Origin: Aminomonas paucivorans DSM 12260
Lineage (GTDB): Bacteria > Synergistota > Synergistia > Synergistales > Synergistaceae
DNA: 64,000 nt
Assembly (NCBI RefSeq): GCF_000165795.1
Contig: NZ_CM001022.1
Location: 496,001 to 560,000, forward strand
Reading direction: 5' to 3'
Shown: positions 45,199 to 55,595 of the stretch, piece by piece
Numbering within the stretch: position 1 is the stretch's first letter
Layout: each line of letters opens with the position of its first letter
Notes under the pieces: model-generated
Seen by the model: the letters and a program-made list of their open reading frames with translations, nothing else
What the model was told of the DNA's origin: nothing
Database searches by the model: none
Made by a program: the position numbers and the translations under genes

Positions 45199-45488
45199 TG
45201 AGGCCGGTCGGACCAAAAGACCGGTTTCGGAAAAGGCGAGGAAGCGGGTGACCCCAGGAGCCCGGATCCCCCAGAGAGAGACCTCCACCGGCTGAGAGGG
45301 GTCTCGGATCCGCCGAAAGGTCCAAGGCCCGCCGAGCCGGCCCCGAAAGGGGGCGCTGTGCGCGTCCCTGGAGTAAGGCGCCCGGGTGGGCCCCGTCAGA
45401 GGCCTCCAAGAGGAGTCCTGGTGGCTCAAGTTGGGTGGTACCGCGGGTTTTCGGCCCGTCCCTTCAATGTGAAGGGGCGGGCCGTTTT
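45191..45488 (+). promoter_or_regulatory. T-box riboswitch, predicted lysine specific
   Basis: The 3' half carries the T-box bulge sequence GGGTGGTACCGCGG (45433-45446), whose TGGT would pair with an ACCA tRNA end, fitting discriminator A of tRNA-Lys. A terminator follows: CGGCCCGTCCCTTCA pairs with the 15 bases ending at 45484, then TTTT. Stem I is traceable: CAGAGAGAGACC and GGCTGAGAGGGG form the distal loop region. GGATCC/GGATCC, GACC/GGTC and GCGGG/CCCGC form the arms. This leaves AAG (45324-45326) unpaired in the specifier position, a lysine codon. Uncharged tRNA-Lys would promote readthrough into lysW. Confidence 0.9.
45452..45488 (+). terminator. T-box leader terminator
   Basis: A 15-pair stem containing two G-U pairs, with loop ATG, followed by TTTT at 45485-45488. 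Its 5' arm lies immediately downstream of the antiterminator T-box sequence, as expected for a transcription-attenuating T-box. Confidence 0.85.
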
Positions 45489-45528: not shown

Positions 45529-45699
45529 ATGGCAAGCGGAGTCTGCGTGGTGTGCGAGGGAGCGGTGGCGCTGCCGGAAGGGTGCTGCCAGGGGGAGATC
45601 CTGGTGTGCGGGGATTGCGGCACGGAGCTGGAGCTGGTGGAGCTGGACCCGCCCCGGTTCGAGGAGGCCCCCCAGGTGCAGGAGGACTGGGGTGAGTAG
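45529..45699 (+). CDS. lysW: LysW amino-group carrier protein
   Basis: 56-residue carrier that holds alpha-aminoadipate through its C-terminal Glu during lysine synthesis. Zinc-ribbon Cys pairs are CVVC near residue 6 and CGDC near 27. The protein is acidic and ends in the diagnostic EDWGE. AAGGAGG lies 9 bases before the ATG. It overlaps lysX by eight bases and is the first gene behind the T-box. Confidence 0.95.
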   Translation: MASGVCVVCEGAVALPEGCCQGEILVCGDCGTELELVELDPPRFEEAPQVQEDWGE

Positions 45700-46543
45700 G
45701 GGGCCCGTCCTTCGGATCCTCTTCACCCGGCTTCGGGCGGAGGAGAAGCTGCTGGCGGAGGCGGCCCGTCGGCAGGGTATCCCCGTGGACCTGGCGGACG
45801 TGACGGACCGGGTCTTCGGGGCCGCCCTGCCCGCGGAGGCCGGGGACGTGGTGCTGGCCCGGTGCGTGAGCCACGGGCAGAACGAGGCGGTGGCCGGGAT
45901 GCTGGAGGCCCGGGGGTTCCGGGTGGCCAACCCGTCGTCGGTGATGGCCCTCTGCGGGGACAAGCTGCGCACCACCCTGGCCCTGGAGCGGGGGGGGGTG
46001 GCGCAACCCCGGTGGCGCACCGCCCTGTCGGAGGAGGGGGCCCTGGAGGCGGCGGAAGAGCTGGGGTACCCGGTGGTCTTCAAGCCCCTGGTGGGAAGCT
46101 GGGGACGCCTGTTGGCCAAGGCGAACGACCGGGAGGCGGCGGAGGCGGTGGTGGAGCACAAGGCCCAGCTGGGGGCGGCGCACCGCACCTTCTACCTCCA
46201 GGAGTACGTGCACAAGGGGGGCTTCGACGTGCGGGCCTTCGTGGTGGGGGGAGAACCCCTCTGCGCCATCCGGCGGGAGAGTTCCCACTGGATCACCAAC
46301 ACCGCCCGGGGGGGACGGGCCTGCGCCCAGCCCCTGGACGAGGAACTCTCCGGGGTGCTCCGGTCGGTGCACGCCGCCCTGGGGGGAGACTTCCTGGCGG
46401 TGGACCTGTTCCGTTCCCGGGACCGGTGGCTGGTGAACGAGGTGAACGACGGAGGGGAGTTCCGCAACTCCGTGGAGCCCACCGGGACGGACATCCCCGG
46501 TGCGGTGGTGGCCCATCTCTGGGCGAACCGGCCGAGGGCGTAG
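45692..46543 (+). CDS. lysX: LysX, alpha-aminoadipate-LysW ligase
   Basis: 283-residue ATP-grasp enzyme that joins alpha-aminoadipate to the C-terminal Glu of LysW. Motifs: VVFKPLVGSWGRLLAK near residue 129 (ATP lid Lys and glycine loop), YLQEYVHKGGFDVRAFVVGG near 170-189, and VNEVNDGGEFRNS near 248 with metal-binding Glu and Asn. Sequence alone does not separate LysX from the glutamate-using ArgX, but the lysine T-box favours aminoadipate. The GTG at 45692 lies inside lysW. Confidence 0.92.
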   Translation: MSRGPVLRILFTRLRAEEKLLAEAARRQGIPVDLADVTDRVFGAALPAEAGDVVLARCVSHGQNEAVAGMLEARGFRVANPSSVMALCGDKLRTTLALERGGVAQPRWRTALSEEGALEAAEELGYPVVFKPLVGSWGRLLAKANDREAAEAVVEHKAQLGAAHRTFYLQEYVHKGGFDVRAFVVGGEPLCAIRRESSHWITNTARGGRACAQPLDEELSGVLRSVHAALGGDFLAVDLFRSRDRWLVNEVNDGGEFRNSVEPTGTDIPGAVVAHLWANRPRA

Positions 46544-46547
46544 GTCC

Positions 46548-46713
46548 GTGACTTCCCGCAGGGAGATCCGAAAGCCCTTGAAGCGCCACGCAGCCGTCCT
46601 CAAGCGGAGGACGGGAGGATGGGTCGTGGGGTTCCGCAGGGTCTAGGCGCGCAGGCGCCCGCCCGAGGAAGAACGTCCGCGACCCGCCTTCGAGACCGGA
46701 GGCGGGTTTTTTT
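46548..46713 (+). promoter_or_regulatory. Putative attenuator with basic leader peptide between lysX and the rest of the operon
   Basis: Four bases after the lysX stop, a GTG opens a 32-codon frame (46548-46646) with three Lys (all AAG) and eight Arg codons. The leader contains a stem CCGTCCTC/GAGGACGG (46594-46614). A segment at 46621-46629 pairs over nine bases with 46677-46685, which includes the left arm of the terminator stem at 46683-46706. The pairing is mutually exclusive with the terminator, the arrangement expected for ribosome-controlled attenuation. Translation of the frame is not proven. Confidence 0.45.
46683..46713 (+). terminator. Rho-independent terminator inside the lysine operon
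   Basis: CCCGCCT (46683-46689) pairs with AGGCGGG (46700-46706) and is followed by seven T residues. It is the most canonical terminator in the window and lies between lysX and the downstream lys genes. Confidence 0.88.
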
Positions 46714-46738
46714 GTGGGGAAGGCAGGAGGGATGGTCC

Positions 46739-46888
46739 GTGGAGGTACGGGTGGACGAGGAGGGCTGGACCGTGGAGATCCGGCTGCGACGGGAACGGCG
46801 GAACGAGGCGCCCCGAGAGGGGCTGTCGGAGGAGGAACCCCGGGGCGAGGGGCCGGGGCATCTGGGGAGGGACGGGGAATGGTGGTGA
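46739..46888 (+). CDS. Possible small acidic/basic protein
   Basis: A 49-codon frame starting at GTG 46739, eight bases after AGGAGG, and ending 10 bases inside the citrate-synthase-like gene. It opens with EVRVDEEGWTVEIRLRRE and ends in GEWW. No family is recognised and it has no Cys. The ribosome site and coupling support it, but small GC-rich frames are common. Confidence 0.4.
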   Translation: MEVRVDEEGWTVEIRLRRERRNEAPREGLSEEEPRGEGPGHLGRDGEWW

Positions 46889-47610
46889 CGGTGGAACGGA
46901 CGGAGGTGTCCCCCGATCGGATGGTCTTGGACGGGCAGCCCGTGGAGTCCTGGATCGAAAGCCTCGCCCCCGGGGATGCGTGGTTTCGCATGCTCCAGGG
47001 GCGGATGCCCGAGGAGGGGGAGCGGCGGGTCTTCGACGGGGTGCTGGTGGCCCTCACCGACCACGGCAGCACCCCCCCCAGCACCCAGGCCGCCCGGCTG
47101 GTGGCCTCCGCGGGGGTGCCCCTCCAGGCGGCCCTGGCGGGGGGGCTGCTGGCCTTCGGGGACCACCATGCCGGGGCCATTGAGGGGGCCATGGCCCTCT
47201 TCCAGGAGGAGGTGGCCCGGCCCGGTCCGGGAGGGGCGGCGGGCCTGGTGGAGCGGACCCTGGAGGAGGGGGCCCGGATCCCGGGGTTCGGGCACCGGGT
47301 GCACCGTCGGGACCCCCGGGTGGTTCCCCTGAAGCGTCTGGGGGAGGCCTGCCTTGTCCGGAGCCCCCACCTGGACCTGTTCCGCTCCCTGGAGGAGGAG
47401 CTGTCCCGGCGCAAGGACATCGGGGGGAACGTGGACGGGGTCTGCGGGGCCCTGCTCTCCGACCTGGGCTTTCCTCCCCAGGCGGGACGGGCCCTGTTCT
47501 TCGCGGGGCGCCTGCCGGGCCTCACGGGGTGGATCCTGCGGGAGACCCGGGGGCGGGCCTTCCGGCCCTACGCCCTGGTGCCCCGGGAGGGCGTCCCGTG
47601 TTCCGCGTAG
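46879..47610 (+). CDS. Citrate synthase-like / citryl-CoA lyase-like protein
   Basis: 243 residues, a short single-piece form of the citrate synthase fold, close in size to citryl-CoA lyase. Conserved catalytic-region motifs are HGSTPPSTQAARLVASAG near residue 60, FGDHHAGAIEGAM near 93, GFGHRVHRRDPR near 137 and GNVDGVCGALLSDLGF near 180. These carry the two His and the Asp expected of the family. It would make or break a C-C bond between acetyl-CoA and a 2-oxo acid. It overlaps lysY by 13 bases, deep inside the lysine operon. An alternative homocitrate-forming or acyl-CoA-linked role is inference; standard LysW pathways use a TIM-barrel homocitrate synthase. Confidence 0.82.
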   Translation: MVVTVERTEVSPDRMVLDGQPVESWIESLAPGDAWFRMLQGRMPEEGERRVFDGVLVALTDHGSTPPSTQAARLVASAGVPLQAALAGGLLAFGDHHAGAIEGAMALFQEEVARPGPGGAAGLVERTLEEGARIPGFGHRVHRRDPRVVPLKRLGEACLVRSPHLDLFRSLEEELSRRKDIGGNVDGVCGALLSDLGFPPQAGRALFFAGRLPGLTGWILRETRGRAFRPYALVPREGVPCSA

Positions 47611-48638
47611 CCCTGTGGGGGGCCACGGGCCTGGCGGGGGGGGAGCTGTTGCGCCTGATTGCGGGGCATCCGAACATGGAACTGGCCTGCGCCGTGTCCC
47701 GAGGTCGGGCGGGGCAACCCCTGGGGGGGACCCACCCCCACCTGCGACATGCCTACCCCTCCTGTTCCTTCGTCTCCCCCGAGGAGGCCCGGGAGGGGGA
47801 GGCGGACCTGGCCTTCCTGGCGCTGCCCCACGGAGCCTCGGCGGAGGAGGCGGGCCGGTGCCTAGCCCGGGGGCAGAAGGTGGTGGACCTGTCGGCGGAC
47901 TTTCGGCTGCGGGACCCGGAGGCCCACCGACGTTGGTACGGGGCGGAGGTCCCCGCTCCGGAGCTGCGGGGCCGGGGGGTGTACGGTCTGCCGGAGCTGC
48001 ACCGGGAGGAGCTGCGGGGGGCGGACCTGGTCTCCGGGGTGGGGTGCAACGCCACCGCCGCGATCCTGGCTCTGCTGCCCCTGGCCCGGGCGGGGGTGCT
48101 GGAGGAGGCCCGGGTGGAGTGCCGGGTGGGCTCCTCCGAGGGGGGCGCCGGAGGGGACGAGGGGAGCCACCACCCCTGGCGCAGCCGGGCCCTTCGGGTG
48201 GTGACCCCCTTCGCCCACCGCCACCTGGGGGAGGTGTGCCAGGAGCTGGGGCTGGAGGAGGAGCGCCTCACCCTGGGGGTGACGGCGGTGGAGCTGGTGC
48301 GGGGGGTGCAGTGCCTGGCCCACGCCACCCTCTCCCGGCCCATGGTGGAGGGGGAGCTGTGGCGCCTCTACCGGGGAGCCTACGGGGAGGAGCCCTTCGT
48401 GGACCTGTGCCCCGCCCGGCCCTCCCACCAGCGGATCCCGGACCCCCGGCACGTCCTGGGGAGCAACCGGGTTCGGGTGGGCTTCGCCCTGGCGGAAGGG
48501 GGGCGGCGGATCCTGGCGGCCTCCGCTCTGGACAACCTGATGAAGGGCGCCGCGGGCACGGCGCTGCAGGGGGCGAACCTGGCCCTGGGGCTCCCGGAGA
48601 CCCGGGGGTTGGACATGCTGCCGGTGTTCCCGGCGTGA
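47598..48638 (+). CDS. lysY: LysY, LysW-aminoadipyl-phosphate reductase (ArgC family)
   Basis: 346 residues. NADPH-dependent reductase of the ArgC family acting on the LysW-bound acyl phosphate. The Rossmann start WGATGLAGGELLRLIAGHP is at about 6-24. FLALPHGAS and VVDLSADFRL follow, then GCNATAAILAL near 152 with the catalytic Cys. The C-terminal NLMKGAAGTALQGANLALGL is the family end. GTG at 47598 overlaps the upstream gene. Confidence 0.94.
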   Translation: MFRVALWGATGLAGGELLRLIAGHPNMELACAVSRGRAGQPLGGTHPHLRHAYPSCSFVSPEEAREGEADLAFLALPHGASAEEAGRCLARGQKVVDLSADFRLRDPEAHRRWYGAEVPAPELRGRGVYGLPELHREELRGADLVSGVGCNATAAILALLPLARAGVLEEARVECRVGSSEGGAGGDEGSHHPWRSRALRVVTPFAHRHLGEVCQELGLEEERLTLGVTAVELVRGVQCLAHATLSRPMVEGELWRLYRGAYGEEPFVDLCPARPSHQRIPDPRHVLGSNRVRVGFALAEGGRRILAASALDNLMKGAAGTALQGANLALGLPETRGLDMLPVFPA

Positions 48639-48652
48639 GGGGAGGAAGGGAC

Positions 48653-49468
48653 ATGATCGGGGTGGTGAAGGTGGGGGGCGCCCGGGGGAACCGGACGGAA
48701 CCCCTGGTGCGGGAGCTGGCGGAGCGGGTGGCCTCGGGGGAGCGTTGGGTCCTGGTGCACGGGGCCAGCGGGGCCATGGACGACCTGTGCCGCCGGGAGG
48801 GGGTGGAGGTGCGCCACGTGGTGAGCCCCTCGGGGTACCGGAGCCGCTTCGTGGGGGAGCCGGAGCGGCGGCTCTTCGAGCGGGCGGCCCGGGAGGCGGG
48901 GGAGGCCCTGGTGGGTCAGTTGGGGGGGCTGGGGGTCCCCAGCAAGGCTCTGCGCCCCGCCCGGGCGGCCCGGAAGGAGTGTCTCCGCTCCCTGGAGGAG
49001 GGGCGGGTCCGGTTGGTCCGGGGCAACCGGAGCGGCTCCGTGACGGAGGTGGATCCCCGTCCCCTGGAGGCCCTGCTGGACTCCCGAACCGTGCCCGTGC
49101 TGCCCCCCCTGGGACGGGACGACGAGGGGCTGTGGCTGAACGTGGACGGGGATCGCCTGGCGGCGGCGACGGCTCGGGCCCTGGGGGCGGAGGTGCTGGT
49201 GATTCTCTCCAACGTGCCGGGGCTTCTGGCGGACCCGCAGGATCCGGAAAGCCGCATCCCCTCGGGGGATTTGGAAGGTTGGGAGGTCCTGGAGGGGGCG
49301 GCGAAGGGGAACATGAAGCGCAAGCTCCTGGCCTGTCGGGAGGCCCTGGAGGGGGGCGTTCCCCGGGTGGTCCTGGGGGACGGACGGGTGGAGGCCCCCC
49401 TGGGGGCGGCACTGTCGGGAAGGGGGACGCAGCTTTGGGCAGCGTGCTGTACGGCGGTCGGGGCCTGA
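48653..49468 (+). CDS. lysZ: LysZ, LysW-aminoadipate kinase (ArgB family)
   Basis: 271-residue amino-acid kinase-fold enzyme that phosphorylates the side-chain carboxylate of LysW-bound aminoadipate. VVKVGGARGN near the N-terminus and WVLVHGASGAMDDL are the phosphate loops. NVDGDRLAAATARALGAEVL near 163 and GNMKRKLLACREAL near 219 are ATP-site motifs. ATG at 48653 follows GGAGGAAGGG. It overlaps lysJ by 34 bases. Confidence 0.93.
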   Translation: MIGVVKVGGARGNRTEPLVRELAERVASGERWVLVHGASGAMDDLCRREGVEVRHVVSPSGYRSRFVGEPERRLFERAAREAGEALVGQLGGLGVPSKALRPARAARKECLRSLEEGRVRLVRGNRSGSVTEVDPRPLEALLDSRTVPVLPPLGRDDEGLWLNVDGDRLAAATARALGAEVLVILSNVPGLLADPQDPESRIPSGDLEGWEVLEGAAKGNMKRKLLACREALEGGVPRVVLGDGRVEAPLGAALSGRGTQLWAACCTAVGA

Positions 49469-50556
49469 CCCTGACGGAGGGCTCCGGGAGTCGGGTGCGG
49501 GATTCCTCGGGGCGGGAGTACCTGGACTGGTTCACGGGGCACGGGGCGCTGCTCTTCGGCCATCGGCACCCCCGGCTGGTTGCGGCTTTGCGGGAGGCCT
49601 CCGAGGGTCTCTGGGGGGTGGGGGCGGGCTTCCGCCACCCCGCCCGGGAGGCCTGCGAGGAGCGCCTGGCGGCCCTGCTTCCCCGGGGGCGGGTTCTCTG
49701 GGCCAACAGCGGGGCGGAGGCCCTGGAAGGGGCCCTCAAGCTGGCCCTGCTGCTGCGCCCGGGGAGGCCCCGTCTGCTGGCGGTGCGTCGGGCCTTTCAC
49801 GGCCGAACCCTGGGGGCCCTGGGGCTCACCTTCAACCCCAAGTATCGGGAACCCTTCCGGGCCTTCCTGCCCCCGGTGGAGCACCGGGGGGCCGAGGAGC
49901 TTCCCGCGGCGGTGGGACCGGATGTGGCGGCGGTGTTTCTGGAGCCCCTACAGGGGGAGGGAGGAGTGCACCCCCTGGATCCGGAGCTGGGCAGGGCGCT
50001 GACCCGGGCCTGCCGGGCCTCCGGGGCCCTTCTGGTGGCGGACGAGGTGCAGTCCGGCATGGGGCGCTGCGGCGCGCTGCTGGCCAGCCCCCTGATGGGG
50101 CTGGAGCCCGACGCGGTGTGCCTGGCCAAGGGACTGGCGGGGGGGCTTCCCGCGGGGGCGCTGGTCTGGCGGGGGGATCTGGGAGACTTCTCCCCCCATT
50201 CTCACGGTTCCACCTGCGCGGGCAACCCCGTGGTCTGCCGGGTGGCCCTGGAGGCGTTCCGGCTCCTGGACGAAGGGCTCCCGCAGCGGGGGGCCGCCCT
50301 GGGAGAGGTCTTCCGGGGGCGGCTTCGGGGCCTGGAGCATCCGGCGATCCGGGAGGTCCGGGGGGTGGGGCTCCTCACGGGGGTGGAGCTGACGGTGCCC
50401 GCCCTGCCTGTGGTGAAGGCCCTCCAGGAGAGGGGCGTCCTGGCCCTGGCGGCGGGGCCTCGGGTGGTGCGGTTTCTGCCCCCCTTCGTTATCCCGGAGG
50501 AGGAGGGGGCGGAGGTGGCGGAACGCTTCGCCTTGGCCCTGGAAGACTGCCGATGA
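49435..50556 (+). CDS. lysJ: LysJ, LysW-aminoadipate semialdehyde aminotransferase
   Basis: 373-residue class III aminotransferase (ArgD-like). WANSGAEALEGALKLA near 91 binds the PLP phosphate, and VADEVQSGMGRCG near 201 has the Asp on the PLP ring nitrogen. The Schiff-base Lys is in CLAKGLAGGLPAGA near 230. TTG at 49435 has AAGGGGG seven bases upstream; a GTG nine bases later is an alternative without good spacing. It overlaps lysZ and ends in ATGA with lysK. Confidence 0.93.
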   Translation: MGSVLYGGRGLTLTEGSGSRVRDSSGREYLDWFTGHGALLFGHRHPRLVAALREASEGLWGVGAGFRHPAREACEERLAALLPRGRVLWANSGAEALEGALKLALLLRPGRPRLLAVRRAFHGRTLGALGLTFNPKYREPFRAFLPPVEHRGAEELPAAVGPDVAAVFLEPLQGEGGVHPLDPELGRALTRACRASGALLVADEVQSGMGRCGALLASPLMGLEPDAVCLAKGLAGGLPAGALVWRGDLGDFSPHSHGSTCAGNPVVCRVALEAFRLLDEGLPQRGAALGEVFRGRLRGLEHPAIREVRGVGLLTGVELTVPALPVVKALQERGVLALAAGPRVVRFLPPFVIPEEEGAEVAERFALALEDCR

Positions 50557-51575
50557 CCCGGGAGGAGCGGCTTCTGGCGGACCTGGTGGGGGTTCCCAGC
50601 CCCAGCGGCGAGGAAGGGGCGGCGGCGGCGACCCTGTGCGACCTTCTTCCCCGGTTCGGCTGGGAGGAGGCGACGGTGGACGAGGCGGGGAGCGTGGTGG
50701 CCCGGCGCGGCTCCGGGGGGCGGGAGCTGCTGCTGCTGGGGCACCTGGACACGGTGCCCGGGGGGCCGGAGGTGCGCCTGGAGGGAGAGGTCCTCTGGGG
50801 GCGGGGGAGCGTGGACGCCAAGGGCCCCCTGTGCGCCCTGGGGGTCAGCGGCGGGCGGATCCCCTTGCCTCCGGGATGGCGGGTGACCCTGGTGGCCGCC
50901 TCGGGGGAGGAGGCGGATTCCCGGGGGACGAGGCACCGCCTGCCCCTCCACGCCCCGGCGGCCTGCCTGGTGGGGGAGCCTACGGGGACCGACGGGGTGG
51001 CCCTCTCCTACCGGGGACGGGTGCTTTTGTCCCTGGAGGGAGAGGACGGAGGAGCCCACCGGTCCGGAGACCCGGGGCCCCTGGCGGCGGCGGTGCGGGC
51101 CGCTGCGGCGATCCTGGAGGAGGCGGAAGCCCGGGAGGGGCACTCCGGCGCGGTGTTGGGCATGGAGGGGCACGAGGCGGGGCGGCGCACCGCCCGGGTG
51201 GACCTGGACCTGCGCCTCCCCCTGGGGGCCTCCGTGGCGGGGTGTCTGGAATGGGCGGCGGAGGTGGCGGCCCGCCGGGGGCTGACCCTGCGGGTGCGGG
51301 ACGCCGTGGAGCCCCACGGCGTGGACCGGTTGGATCCGGCGGTGCAGGCCCTGCGGGTGGCGGTGCGGGGGGAGGGCATGACGCCCCGGCTCCTGGCCAA
51401 GCAGGGCACGGCGGACTTCAACCTGGCCGCCGCCTGGGGGTGTCCCCTGGCGGTCTACGGCCCCGGGGACTCCCGGATGGACCACACCTCGGAGGAACGG
51501 CTGGATCTGGGGGAGTACCGCCGGGCCCTGGGGGTGCTGGATCGGGCCCTGCCTCTTTTGATGGATCGGGCCTAA
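50553..51575 (+). CDS. lysK: LysK, LysW-lysine hydrolase (M20 peptidase family)
   Basis: 340 residues. Releases lysine from LysW. Metal-binding M20 motifs: LGHLDTVPG near residue 62, GRGSVDAKGP near 87, catalytic GEEADSRGT near 118 and GEPTG near 140. The late metal His appears in MDHTSEE near the C-terminus. It is the last gene of the lysine operon and converges on the ECF S-component gene with a four-base overlap. Confidence 0.93.
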   Translation: MTREERLLADLVGVPSPSGEEGAAAATLCDLLPRFGWEEATVDEAGSVVARRGSGGRELLLLGHLDTVPGGPEVRLEGEVLWGRGSVDAKGPLCALGVSGGRIPLPPGWRVTLVAASGEEADSRGTRHRLPLHAPAACLVGEPTGTDGVALSYRGRVLLSLEGEDGGAHRSGDPGPLAAAVRAAAAILEEAEAREGHSGAVLGMEGHEAGRRTARVDLDLRLPLGASVAGCLEWAAEVAARRGLTLRVRDAVEPHGVDRLDPAVQALRVAVRGEGMTPRLLAKQGTADFNLAAAWGCPLAVYGPGDSRMDHTSEERLDLGEYRRALGVLDRALPLLMDRA

Positions 51576-52120
51576 CGGCGGAGGAAGGGGCTCGGGGCCA
51601 GACGGGCGCGTTCCAGGAGGATGCGGCAGAGGAAGGCGTAGGCGGGAACGGTGACGACCGCCGCCACCAGGCGGGGGGGCACCGTGGCGGCCAGGGGCAG
51701 CCCGAAGAGGTGGCGGAGGATCAGGGGGACCAGCAGGCAGGAGACGAGGAGATAGGGGGCCCCCACCGCCGCCAGGAGCCCGGGCAGGCCGGGCCTTCCC
51801 GGCCAGACCCGCCAGAGGAGCCCCGGGAGGGCTCCCCCCAGGGCCGCCGCCGCGGTGAAGTGGGGCATGTAGGGCCCCATGGGCTGCACCCAGTAGCCCA
51901 GCAGGTCCCCCAGGGCTCCCACCAGGGTCCCCGCGGCGGGGCCCATCCCCAGGCTCGCCAGCACTACGGGAAGATGCCCCAGCCCCAGGCGCACCCCCTC
52001 CACGGGTCCCAGGGCGATGCGGATGCTGGCCACCCGGGTGAGCACCACGTTCAGCCCCACCAGCAGGCCCAGGAACACCAGCTCCCGGGTGGTGGGGCGC
52101 CAGAGCCGCCGCGGTTCCAC
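51572..52120 (-). CDS. ECF transporter S component (FolT/QueT-like)
   Basis: 182-residue membrane protein with six hydrophobic segments, the size and layout of an energy-coupling-factor substrate-binding subunit. Segment 1 (ELVFLGLLVGLNVVLTRVAS) resembles the A-x-x-x-A packing motif region. LGLGHLPVVLASLGMGPAAG, then VGALGDLLGYWVQPMGPYMP, match folate-family S components (VGALGDLLG). Substrate is likely a vitamin; no A or T subunits are nearby, so a shared ECF module is implied. The GTG start directly follows the CaiB-family stop. Confidence 0.85.
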   Translation of the reverse strand: MEPRRLWRPTTRELVFLGLLVGLNVVLTRVASIRIALGPVEGVRLGLGHLPVVLASLGMGPAAGTLVGALGDLLGYWVQPMGPYMPHFTAAAALGGALPGLLWRVWPGRPGLPGLLAAVGAPYLLVSCLLVPLILRHLFGLPLAATVPPRLVAAVVTVPAYAFLCRILLERARLAPSPFLRR

Positions 52121-53332
52121 CTAGAGGATCCCCTTCCCCTTCAGGGTTTCGATCTCCCCTTCCGACAGGCCCAACAGCTCCCGGTGCACCAGGTCGTTGT
52201 GCTCCCCCAGAAGGGGCGGGGCCAGGCGGATGCCCGAGGGGTTCTCGGCGAAGTGCATGGGGCACCCCGGGAGAAGCACCTCCCGGCCCCCGGGGAGGGA
52301 GGAGGGGACCAGCATGTCCCGGGCGGCGAGCTGCTTGTCCCCCAGAAGCTCCGCCACCCCCCGCACCGGGGCGGCGGGCACCTGAGAGGCTTCGAGGAGG
52401 GCCACCGCCTCGTCGGTGGGCAGGGTGCGCGTCCAGGCGGAGAGGGTCTCGGTGAGTTCCACCAGGTGGGCGATCCGGGCCTCGTTGGTGGCGAAGAGGG
52501 GGTGATCCGCCAGGTCGGGGCGCTCCATGACGGCGCAGAGGCGCTCCCAGGTGGGGCGGGTGGCGCATCCCAGGACCAACCATCCGTCGGCGGTGGGGTA
52601 GACGTCGTAGGGGGCTGCGCTGGCGTGGGCGCTGCCCATGCGCCCCGGGGGAAGGGGCTCCAGTTGGGCCCGCACCAGGGCGTTCTCCAGGATGGCGAAC
52701 ACCGAGTCCACCATGGCCAGGTCCAGCCGGTCCCCCCGGCCGGTGACGCTGCGGCGGTACAGGGCGGCGCACACCGCGTTGGCGGCGAACATCCCCGTGG
52801 CGATGTCCCCCAGGGAGCTGCCCACCCGGGTGGGGGGGGCGTCGGGGAAGCCCGTGAGGCCCATGAGGCCTCCCCGGGCCTGGGCGGTGATGTCGAAGGC
52901 CAGCTTGGAGGACTCGGGCCCCGTCTGGCCGAAGCCGCTGATGGAGCAGTACACCAGCCGGGGGTTCTCCTCCCTCAGGGCCTCGTGTCCCAGGCCCCAG
53001 CCCTCCATGGTGCCGGGGGAGAAGTTCTCCACCAGCACGTCCGCCCTCCGGGCCAGGCGGCGGCACAGGTCCTGCCCCTCCGGGGCGCGCAGGTTCAGGG
53101 TGAAGGATCGCTTGTTGCGGTTGAAGGTGGCGAAGTAGCCGCTCTGTCCGTCCTCCAGGGGAAGGTAGCCCCGGGAGTCGTCCCCCCGCCCCGGCACCTC
53201 CGCCTTGAGGACCGTGGCCCCCAGGTCTCCCAGCACCATGGTGCAGTAGGGGCCCGCCAGGGCCCGGGAGAGATCCAGGACCAGGACTCCTTCCAGCGGT
53301 CCGGAGCCGACGCCTTGCTTTTCCGTGGACAT
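52121..53332 (-). CDS. CaiB/BaiF family III CoA-transferase
   Basis: 403 residues; moves CoA between carboxylic acids. Family signatures: LVLDLSRALAGPYCTMVLGD near residue 15, FNRNKRSFTLNLRAPEG near 70, and the catalytic Asp in LAMVDSVFAILEN near 170. The second ATG (53332) is six bases after GGAGGG, whereas the ATG at 53338 abuts it. It is divergent from ptb-buk, which also handle acyl-CoA, suggesting a role in organic-acid metabolism. The acid is unknown. Confidence 0.92.
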   Translation of the reverse strand: MSTEKQGVGSGPLEGVLVLDLSRALAGPYCTMVLGDLGATVLKAEVPGRGDDSRGYLPLEDGQSGYFATFNRNKRSFTLNLRAPEGQDLCRRLARRADVLVENFSPGTMEGWGLGHEALREENPRLVYCSISGFGQTGPESSKLAFDITAQARGGLMGLTGFPDAPPTRVGSSLGDIATGMFAANAVCAALYRRSVTGRGDRLDLAMVDSVFAILENALVRAQLEPLPPGRMGSAHASAAPYDVYPTADGWLVLGCATRPTWERLCAVMERPDLADHPLFATNEARIAHLVELTETLSAWTRTLPTDEAVALLEASQVPAAPVRGVAELLGDKQLAARDMLVPSSLPGGREVLLPGCPMHFAENPSGIRLAPPLLGEHNDLVHRELLGLSEGEIETLKGKGIL

Positions 53333-53368
53333 GCCCATCCCTCCGGGAGATCCCCTTCCCCCCTTCCC

Positions 53369-53396
53369 TTTTGGGGCCGGACGGAGAGGGTATAAT
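53369..53396 (+). promoter_or_regulatory. Promoter of the ptb-buk operon
   Basis: A perfect TATAAT (53391-53396) is preceded at 16 bases by TTTTGG (53369-53374), a weak -35. The 90-base leader holds a small hairpin GCCCG/CGGGC near 53403-53421. Confidence 0.6.
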
Positions 53397-53487
53397 GACG
53401 ATGCCCGATTATACAGCGGGCGGATCGTTTTAGGTAGCAGGTACTAGAATCAGGTTCGAAACTTTTTTCGAGGAGGTTGCCGTTCGG

Positions 53488-54420
53488 ATGAAACAGTTGC
53501 GTTCCCTGACCGAGTTGCTGCAGTACGCCCAGGAAGTGGGTCCCCTCACCATCAGCGTGGCCTGCGCCGAGGACGCGGAGGTCCTGGAGGCCGTCGAGGA
53601 GGCCCGCAAGAAGGGCATCGCCAAGGCGTTCCTGGTGGGGGACGCGGACAAGATCCGCTCCGTCGCCTCCGGCCTGGGCGTGGACCTGACCCCCTACGAC
53701 GTGGTGGACGAGAAGGGCGGCGAGGCCGCCGCTTCCCTGCGGGCGGTGGAGCTGGTCTCCTCCGGGCAGGCGGACATCCTCATGAAGGGGATGGTCAAGA
53801 CCGCCAACTTCCTCCGGGGGGTCCTCAACAAGGAGAAGGGGCTGCGCAGCGGCTCCCTGCTGTCCCACGTGTACATCCACGAGGTGGAGAACTACGACCG
53901 GATCTTCTTCATCGCCGACCCGGCCTTCAATATGTATCCCGACCTGGGGGCGAAAGTTGGCATCATCGACAACACGGTGCAGCTGGCTCACGCCTTCGGG
54001 GTGGAGTGCCCCAAGGTGGCGGCCCTGGGGGCGGTGGAGGTGGTGAACGCGGACATGCCTCCCACTCTGGACGCGGCGAACCTCACCCAGATGAACCGGC
54101 GCGGCCAGATCAAGGGCTGCCTGGTGGACGGCCCCCTGGCCCTGGACAACGCGGTGAGCGAAGAGTCCGCCAGGCACAAGGGCATCGTCTCCGACGTGGC
54201 GGGGCATGCGGACATCCTCCTGGTGCCCAACATCGAGGCGGGGAACATGCTGGCCAAGGCCATCATCTACTTCGCCCGCAACAAGACCGCGGGCCTGGTG
54301 CTGGGCGCCAAGGCCCCGGTGGTGCTCACCAGCCGGGCGGATTCGTCGGAGACCAAGCTGCTCTCCATCGCCTCCGCGGTGGCCCTGGCGGCGTTCCAAA
54401 AGAAGAAGAAACGGGGCTAG
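53488..54420 (+). CDS. ptb: Phosphate butyryltransferase
   Basis: 310-residue enzyme that converts butyryl-CoA (or a branched acyl-CoA) and phosphate to acyl phosphate. The PTA/PTB fold is shown by GQADILMKGMVKTANFLRGV near residue 95, HVYIHEVENYDRIFFIADPA near 130 and a C-terminal AKAPVVLTSRADSSETKLLS near 275-294. ATG at 53488 follows CGAGGAGG. It precedes butyrate kinase by 80 bases, the classical ATP-yielding pair of butyrate and branched-chain-acid producers. Confidence 0.94.
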   Translation: MKQLRSLTELLQYAQEVGPLTISVACAEDAEVLEAVEEARKKGIAKAFLVGDADKIRSVASGLGVDLTPYDVVDEKGGEAAASLRAVELVSSGQADILMKGMVKTANFLRGVLNKEKGLRSGSLLSHVYIHEVENYDRIFFIADPAFNMYPDLGAKVGIIDNTVQLAHAFGVECPKVAALGAVEVVNADMPPTLDAANLTQMNRRGQIKGCLVDGPLALDNAVSEESARHKGIVSDVAGHADILLVPNIEAGNMLAKAIIYFARNKTAGLVLGAKAPVVLTSRADSSETKLLSIASAVALAAFQKKKKRG

Positions 54421-54500
54421 ACCCCCTTCAGAGACGAAGACCTTCGCGGGGGGACGTCCGGTTCGGACGCTCCCCCCTTTGTGGATGGGAGGAGGGCATC

Positions 54501-55595
54501 ATGCACGCACCCCTGATCCTGGCGATCCATCCCCGGCCTCGGAGCACCGAGGCGGCTCTGTTCCAGGGGGAGAGAGAACTCTGGCGGGACGGCAGACAGC
54601 ACGCCTTGCAGGATCTGCACCGGTTCCCCTCCGTGTCGGCCCAGTTGGACTTCCGGCTCCGCAGCCTCCAGGACCTCCTCCTGGCCCAGGAAACCGACCC
54701 CGCCAAGCTGGACGGGGTGGTGGGAACGGGGGGACTGCTTCGCCCCATCCCCGGAGGGACCTACCGGGTCACCCCCGCCATGCTGGAGGAGCTGGAGAGT
54801 TGCCGCTACGGCTGCCACGTGTCCAACCTGGGGGCGCCCCTGGCCCGGAGGATGGCGGACCTGGCGGGGGGGCGTCCCGCCTTCGTGGTGGACCCCCTGG
54901 TGGTGGACGAACTTCTCCCGGAGGCCCGGCTTTCGGGCATCCCGGAGATCGAACGCAAGTCCCTGTTCCACGCCCTCTCCCAGCGCGCCGCAGGGCGTCA
55001 CGCCGCCCGGGCCCTGGGGCGTCCCTACGAGGAGTGCAACCTGGTGGTGGCCCACCTGGGCTTCGGCATCAGCGTGGGGGCCCACCATCGGGGCCGGGTG
55101 GAGGAGGTCAACAACCCCCTGGAGGGGGAGGGGCCCTTCTCCGGGGAGCGCTCCGGGGGGTTGCCCTGCGGGGAGCTGGTGCGCCTGGCCTACAGCGGCC
55201 GCTACGACTTCGAGGAAATGATGGACCGCATCACCCGCAAGGGGGGGCTTCTGGCCCACCTGGGCACCGACGACCCCCACGTCCTGGATTCCCGCATCCG
55301 GGGAGGGGACGAGAAGGCCCGGCTGGTGGTGGAGGCCCTGGCCTACCAGGTGGCCAAGGAGATCGCCGCCCGGGGGGCGGTGCTTCGGGGGGTGGTGGAC
55401 GGGGTGGTGCTCACGGGGCACCTGGCCCGTTGGGACACCCTGGTGGAGGGCATCCGACGCTGGGCGGACTGGGTGGCCCCCTTCCAGGTCTTTCCGGGGG
55501 AGAACGAGCTGGCGGCCCTGGCGGAGGGGGCCCTTCGGGTCCTGCTGGGGCAGGAGGAGCCTCGGATCTACGAGGAAGAGACGGGGGGACGGTAG
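54501..55595 (+). CDS. buk: Butyrate kinase
   Basis: 364 residues, acetate/propionate kinase (ASKHA) superfamily. LAIHPRPRSTEAALFQGE near the N-terminus is the adenosine/phosphate loop (usually N-P-G-S-T-S; here H-P-R-P-R-S-T), VGTGGLLRPIPGGTYRV near residue 74 is the family signature, and VVAHLGFGISVGAHHRGRV near 184 is the second phosphate loop. GGAGGAGGG precedes the ATG. With ptb it would yield ATP and a fatty acid from acyl-CoA. The loop differs slightly from the usual N-P-G-S-T-S, worth noting. Confidence 0.92.
   Translation: MHAPLILAIHPRPRSTEAALFQGERELWRDGRQHALQDLHRFPSVSAQLDFRLRSLQDLLLAQETDPAKLDGVVGTGGLLRPIPGGTYRVTPAMLEELESCRYGCHVSNLGAPLARRMADLAGGRPAFVVDPLVVDELLPEARLSGIPEIERKSLFHALSQRAAGRHAARALGRPYEECNLVVAHLGFGISVGAHHRGRVEEVNNPLEGEGPFSGERSGGLPCGELVRLAYSGRYDFEEMMDRITRKGGLLAHLGTDDPHVLDSRIRGGDEKARLVVEALAYQVAKEIAARGAVLRGVVDGVVLTGHLARWDTLVEGIRRWADWVAPFQVFPGENELAALAEGALRVLLGQEEPRIYEEETGGR

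Follow-up and report, generated by a model that had tools for sequence, protein, structure and literature searches.

What does a gene of the citrate synthase fold do in the middle of a lysine operon? We analyzed a 64,000-nucleotide stretch of the genome of Aminomonas paucivorans DSM 12260, a bacterium that ferments amino acids (hereafter the window, genome positions 496001-560000 of a 2.63 Mb single contig) in which such a gene, here called CSL, was found at window positions 46879-47610. The genome has been described as 2,630,120 bp with 67.6% G+C (PMC3035310). The original prediction placed a 243-residue gene between lysX and lysY with a 13-bp overlap into lysY, and reading of the open reading frames bore this out, with an ATG start for CSL and a GTG start for lysY at 47598. 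The operon genes, and the leader elements and small ORF described below, all lie on the forward strand. We identified lysW (45529-45699), encoding an amino-group carrier protein with the C-terminus EDWGE (PF21344, E=2.6e-12); lysX (45692-46543), of the LysW-aminoadipate ligase type with the signature FRNSV (LysX_preATP_grasp and RimK matches; TIGR02144 at 265 bits against a cut-off of 276; aligned to Thermus LysX, 3vpd); lysY (47598-48638), an argC type reductase (TIGR01850, 318 bits); and the lysZ kinase (48653-49468), assigned from its frame and position, with a similar protein seen by eye at the matching place in relatives. These are followed by the lysJ aminotransferase (49423-50556, start approximate; Aminotran_3, E=3e-83) and the lysK hydrolase (50553-51575; TIGR01902 at 211 bits, above cut-off, and the [LysW]-lysine hydrolase model NF003367 at 273 bits, below its cut-off of 363). 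With lysW, X, Y, Z, J and K all present, lysZ by position and reading, and with the aminoadipate signature in LysX, this is a LysW lysine operon. Beside it, at 51572-55595, the window holds genes for an ECF transporter S component, a CoA-transferase of family III (PF02515), and proteins like phosphate butyryltransferase and butyrate kinase.

CSL proved to be a member of the citrate synthase superfamily, as had been suggested. It matched PF00285 with E=1.4e-34 and 120 bits (cut-off 27), and comparison of its predicted fold agreed. When ten homologues were aligned, His62, His97, His139 and Asp186 were invariant, in keeping with the predicted conservation of catalytic His and Asp positions; we take these residues to correspond to the catalytic set of pig citrate synthase. 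CSL did not read as a Si-citrate synthase, since the match covers only profile positions 151-356, the catalytic C-terminal part, and all citrate synthase equivalogs scored far below cut-off. The Arg of its C-terminal FRPY segment is not conserved: family members have R, K, A or another residue there, which hints that CSL may bind the distal carboxylate differently from citrate synthase.

Does the operon respond to lysine or to arginine? RNA evidence allows this question to be tested without culturing the organism. Upstream of lysW lies a T-box leader with a terminator (45230-45484), which scored 38.4 bits against RF00230 (E=3.3e-7), short of the curated gathering cut-off of 93. The core GGGTGGTACCGCG is exact at 45433, the terminator spans 45452-45484, and the leader, which also has a stem I helix and a specifier, is conserved in nine related lysW leaders from other genomes. 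Alignment of the ten leaders and a covarying helix placed the specifier at 45324-45326, where it reads AAG (Lys). Out of the ten leaders, 8 had AAG and 2 had AAA, both lysine codons, and a purine follows. The 5-bp helix beside the specifier was 100% paired although both bases of each of its five pairs vary among the leaders, compared with 82% pairing in shuffled controls and 16-50% when the position was slid. At the matching place, read by eye, the T-box of argG in this genome has CGC and the carA T-boxes of G002 and G004 (f11) have CGG, both arginine codons. An AGG (Arg) specifier in the window was considered and rejected, as its register gives AAA/AAG in G182/G017 and differs from that of the covarying helix.

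The LysX proteins told a similar story. Those like G000 have EFRNS, compared with FKNS in Thermus LysX, and the others have EFHGS, EFRSS or EFARSS; genomes with two adjacent LysX proteins carry one of each class. For the meaning of the LysX motifs (GSWGR, FxNSV) we followed PMC10433800. The searches found argG and no ArgJ in the genome, which raised the possibility of an arginine-only, ArgX-like operon; this was set aside on the NS signature of LysX and the Lys specifiers. Because it has a T-box with a Lys specifier and a LysX with the NS signature as in Thermus, the lysW operon is predicted to be under lysine control.

A second set of regulatory elements precedes CSL itself. The gap between lysX and CSL is 335 bp and contains two small ORFs, the first of them a leader, along with a terminator. 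The putative leader peptide VTSRREIRKPLKRHAAVLKRRTGGWVVGFRRV (46548-46646) has 11 Lys or Arg residues out of 32, and only 2 of 500 shuffles contained an ORF with equal Lys and Arg content. An antiterminator strand, GAGGATGGGTCGTGGG (46615-46630), pairs with the 5' arm of a predicted intrinsic terminator (46681-46715, its end also being placed at 46708), and 11 of 1000 shuffles paired equally well. The leader peptide would act by ribosome stalling at its Lys/Arg codons. Given the Arg codons, a joint lysine/ornithine response of the attenuator and dual use of the operon for ornithine are both possible. This arrangement also modifies the tight coupling that had been proposed for CSL: the 13-bp overlap with lysY stands, but the gene is not tightly joined to lysX. 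In a partial search of the literature, we found no published description of a T-box and a leader-peptide attenuator in one lysW operon.

We compared the region after lysX in other operons. NS-class operons have a gap of ~190-350 bp there, usually ending in a strong terminator, although none was obtained for G176 and G177 in this survey, and the lysX-lysY gap of GS/SS-class operons is mostly 21-79 bp without a terminator, with G122 as the exception. Judging by their sequences, NS-class lysX-lysY gaps that lack CSL probably also hold a Lys/Arg attenuator. The ORFs in the lysX gaps of relatives include, for example, MSGCVTAYESAIKFADKCKRGIKRLPDGSW. At the NS-class loci L090, L091 and L096, a leader peptide of the form ...KCKRGIKR..DGSW is conserved and a terminator lies between lysX and lysY.

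Two genomes of one distant family, G002 and G004, carry CSL apart from lysW, and yet the gene has its own K/R-rich leader (LKKEKKRIGAR), antiterminator and terminator, with 23 and 27 of 1000 shuffles, respectively, giving an equally good antiterminator. The G002 CSL leader begins MKAHLSKKLVSLKKEKKR..., and its start, KAHLSK, resembles the leader of the G002 lysX operon; the lysX operon of both genomes is preceded by a similar Lys-rich leader. The antiterminator pairing was not significant in several single relatives, nor in the f11 lysX leaders as scored, these being read by inspection. Where CSL stands alone in G024 and G182, no T-box or other Rfam element was found in front of it. Downstream of the G182 gene there is a c-di-AMP riboswitch (L037 9211-9347), and 3' of CSL in G002 and G004 (L040, L041) we noted by eye a gene resembling Asp/Glu racemases of the maleate isomerase type. 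The case for CSL serving lysine rests most strongly on the Lys-type leader of the unlinked gene in G002 and G004.

The second small ORF of the gap (46739-46888, start codon approximate) ends in ...GHLGRDGEWW, and its stop overlaps the CSL start. ORFs of ~40-55 codons with the ending H(L/I)GRDGEWW were present at all eight Synergistales CSL loci (including L033-L039). Synonymous codon changes occur in the tail, which suggests selection on the peptide; the tail partly contains the CSL ribosome-binding site, and the small ORF, which had no Pfam match, may only couple translation to CSL.

If the operon makes lysine, which enzymes supply its aminoadipate? The original prediction held that no homocitrate, homoaconitase or homoisocitrate gene lies in the window, and indeed all matches of the genome to PF00682, PF00330 and PF00180 fell outside 496001-560000. 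Since PF00682 matched only LeuA, in the ilv/leu cluster, and an OadA-like protein, the HMM searches of the genome found neither a TIM-barrel homocitrate synthase nor a Re-citrate synthase, and the whole-genome check for a lysS/nifV-type enzyme, which had been named as a possible objection, thus came back empty. The leuCD and leuB genes lie near 750 kb of the genome, and lysA gave a weak match only, to a protein that reads like ornithine decarboxylase. Two aconitase-type large subunits and an IDH-like protein are encoded at 2.004-2.009 Mb; the best score of the latter was to the homoisocitrate dehydrogenase AksF2, below that model's cut-off. In relatives the order of this cluster is GntR, a small protein, HacA1, HacB1, HacA2, HacB2, the IDH-like protein, a probable CitD (by eye), CitE and CitF. 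The whole Hac/Cit cluster (L014 6457-15521, genome 2.002-2.012 Mb; also L162-L180) is highly conserved in Synergistota. It is kept across several families with or without LysX or CSL, and its IDH-like protein is about 70-88% identical in most. Because it carries CitDEF and is conserved also where LysX or CSL is missing, its role is probably mainly catabolic, perhaps in glutamate or citrate fermentation, and possibly it also serves homocitrate isomerization.

CSL lies inside a predicted lysine-controlled operon and the usual homocitrate synthase was not found in the genome, which makes it the best candidate we have for the missing first step. A role in lysine synthesis, as originally proposed, is likely in view of the Lys T-box, the leader, antiterminator and terminator before CSL, and the Lys-rich leader of its own where it is unlinked. 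This proposal stood on the Lys T-box, the NS signature of LysX and the Lys-type attenuation in two genomes, and is weakened by the fact that most LysW operons lack CSL. Our preferred reading, tentative and held with somewhat less than even confidence, is that CSL is a short condensing enzyme of the citrate synthase fold belonging to the lysine regulon, and that it most likely makes homocitrate. Running in the synthetic direction, it would join acetyl-CoA to 2-oxoglutarate, our proposed second substrate, to give homocitrate, the first committed step toward aminoadipate, which LysX then attaches to LysW; at the homoaconitase and homoisocitrate dehydrogenase steps, the products of the HacA1-HacB1-HacA2-HacB2-IDH-like cluster (2.00-2.01 Mb) could act. 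When regulation, the missing enzymes and the chemistry are weighed jointly, homocitrate synthesis is the most economical role. The weak lysA match, the best score of the IDH-like protein to AksF2 and the Arg codons of the argG and carA T-boxes also count in its favor. We know of no homocitrate synthase with the citrate synthase fold.

We surveyed 188 Synergistota genomes for CSL. Relatives were present in 13 and close copies in 10, compared with a full-length LysX in about 74. CSL lies between lysX and lysY in G000, G173, G174 and G175, and in G019 it immediately precedes lysY, at the end of a contig; it lies elsewhere in the genome in G024, G182, G183, G002 and G004. Thus the expectation that related lys operons would carry the gene was borne out in G173, G174, G175 and G019 but failed in most relatives. 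Most LysX genomes sampled lacked CSL and also had no homocitrate synthase linked to lysine genes, and no protein in a sample of 53 genomes passed the cut-off for NifV homocitrate synthase. A few of these genomes have short HMGL proteins, which were considered as lysine homocitrate synthases and rejected, as the neighbors read were GntR regulators, transporters or aminotransferases rather than lysine genes. Outside the phylum, a scan found CSL relatives in Methanobrevibacter and Archaeoglobi.

One alternative is that CSL is a short-form citrate synthase that makes citrate from acetyl-CoA and oxaloacetate and, with aconitase and isocitrate dehydrogenase, provides the LysW pathway with 2-oxoglutarate and glutamate. 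CSL is the sole PF00285 protein found by HMM search of the genome, so that no other citrate synthase was found, and genes for an aconitase and an isocitrate dehydrogenase are grouped at 36-39 kb of the genome; in Methanobrevibacter the relatives of CSL adjoin, by eye, genes for a dehydratase of the MmgE/PrpD type and a fumarase-like protein. We nevertheless consider this role unlikely. Control by lysine starvation would be an odd switch for central citrate supply, a PF00285 protein of any kind occurs in only 12 of the 188 Synergistota (176 do without one), and G002 and G004 own a full-length citrate synthase besides the CSL with the Lys-type leader.

The distribution could also mean that CSL is a passenger from unrelated metabolism that landed behind an attenuator and is dispensable for lysine synthesis, as would fit the many LysW operons without it and its position elsewhere in G024, G182 and G183. 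In G183, which is 99% complete, CSL is present and a full LysX is absent, and the gene has been lost or broken in sister genomes: within one genus G024 has an intact copy, G023 has a fragment, and none was found in G021 or G022, with lysine T-box operons in G024, G023 and G021. In the tree, the stand-alone copies of G182 and G183 group beside the operon copies of G173-G175, so CSL has moved in or out of the operon. In G002 and G004, however, CSL has a Lys-rich leader and a terminator to itself, which a chance insertion would hardly explain, and the eight copies from Synergistales group as a single clade with full support and share the conserved small ORF coupled to the gene; we judge a dispensable passenger to be distinctly unlikely.

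The solved protein closest to CSL by sequence was the Hydrogenobacter citryl-CoA lyase 6hxp (E=6.5e-34, against ~1e-15 for citrate synthases; profile comparison, E=9.5e-61), which was also the best match of the predicted CSL structure (mean pLDDT 86; TM 0.86, with 32% identity in the structural alignment). Although the best NCBIfam models were likewise subfamilies of the citryl-CoA lyase PRK06224, we find it improbable that CSL splits citryl-CoA from a CoA ligase or CoA-transferase and is merely co-transcribed with the lysine genes, as every PRK06224 score was below cut-off (207 bits against 245 and 157 against 212 for the two best) and the CaiB-type CoA-transferase beside the operon was not found there in G173-G175.

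Against the homocitrate role, we count the nearness of citryl-CoA lyase, the few genomes with CSL, the LysX genomes in which both CSL and a homocitrate synthase are lacking, G183 without a full LysX, the loss within the G024 genus and the probably catabolic main role of the Hac/IDH cluster. The requirement of A. paucivorans for yeast extract (PMC3035310) was also counted against homocitrate synthesis for lysine. The fuller proposal, in which a homocitrate synthase of the citrate synthase fold has taken the place of the non-homologous LysS/NifV and acts with a LysW operon under double RNA control by a tRNA-Lys T-box and a Lys/Arg attenuator, seems to us possible though doubtful. What is new here is the RNA evidence for lysine control of CSL. 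Many genomes with LysW operons in Synergistota lack a recognizable first aminoadipate enzyme; if CSL does make homocitrate, homocitrate synthase would have arisen twice in evolution, once on the citrate synthase fold, and a protein branch currently labeled citryl-CoA lyase would gain a function.

Among known systems, the citryl-CoA lyase of Hydrogenobacter thermophilus (6hxp) shares with CSL the short citrate synthase fold without inserted N-terminal helices, the catalytic His/His/Asp and a length of ~240-270 residues, whereas CSL lies in a predicted lysine-regulated operon, falls below the PRK06224 cut-offs and has FRPY (in G000) rather than KPFSKRL in its C-terminal segment. The TIM-barrel homocitrate synthases (LysS/NifV), which are HMGL-like, resemble CSL in the proposed reaction only, as the folds are unrelated. 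The operon resembles the LysW aminoadipate pathway of Thermus thermophilus in its lysW, X, Y, Z, J and K genes, the EDWGE tail of LysW and the GSWGR and FxNSV motifs of LysX (motifs after PMC10433800); it differs in that no TIM-barrel homocitrate synthase was found and a citrate-synthase-fold gene lies between lysX and lysY. The lysW leader has the core, specifier and antiterminator of T-boxes (RF00230), and the region before CSL has, like amino-acid leader-peptide attenuators, a leader rich in regulated codons and mutually exclusive hairpins. Unlike the known systems of either kind, this lysW operon has both, together with a leader that combines Lys and Arg codons.
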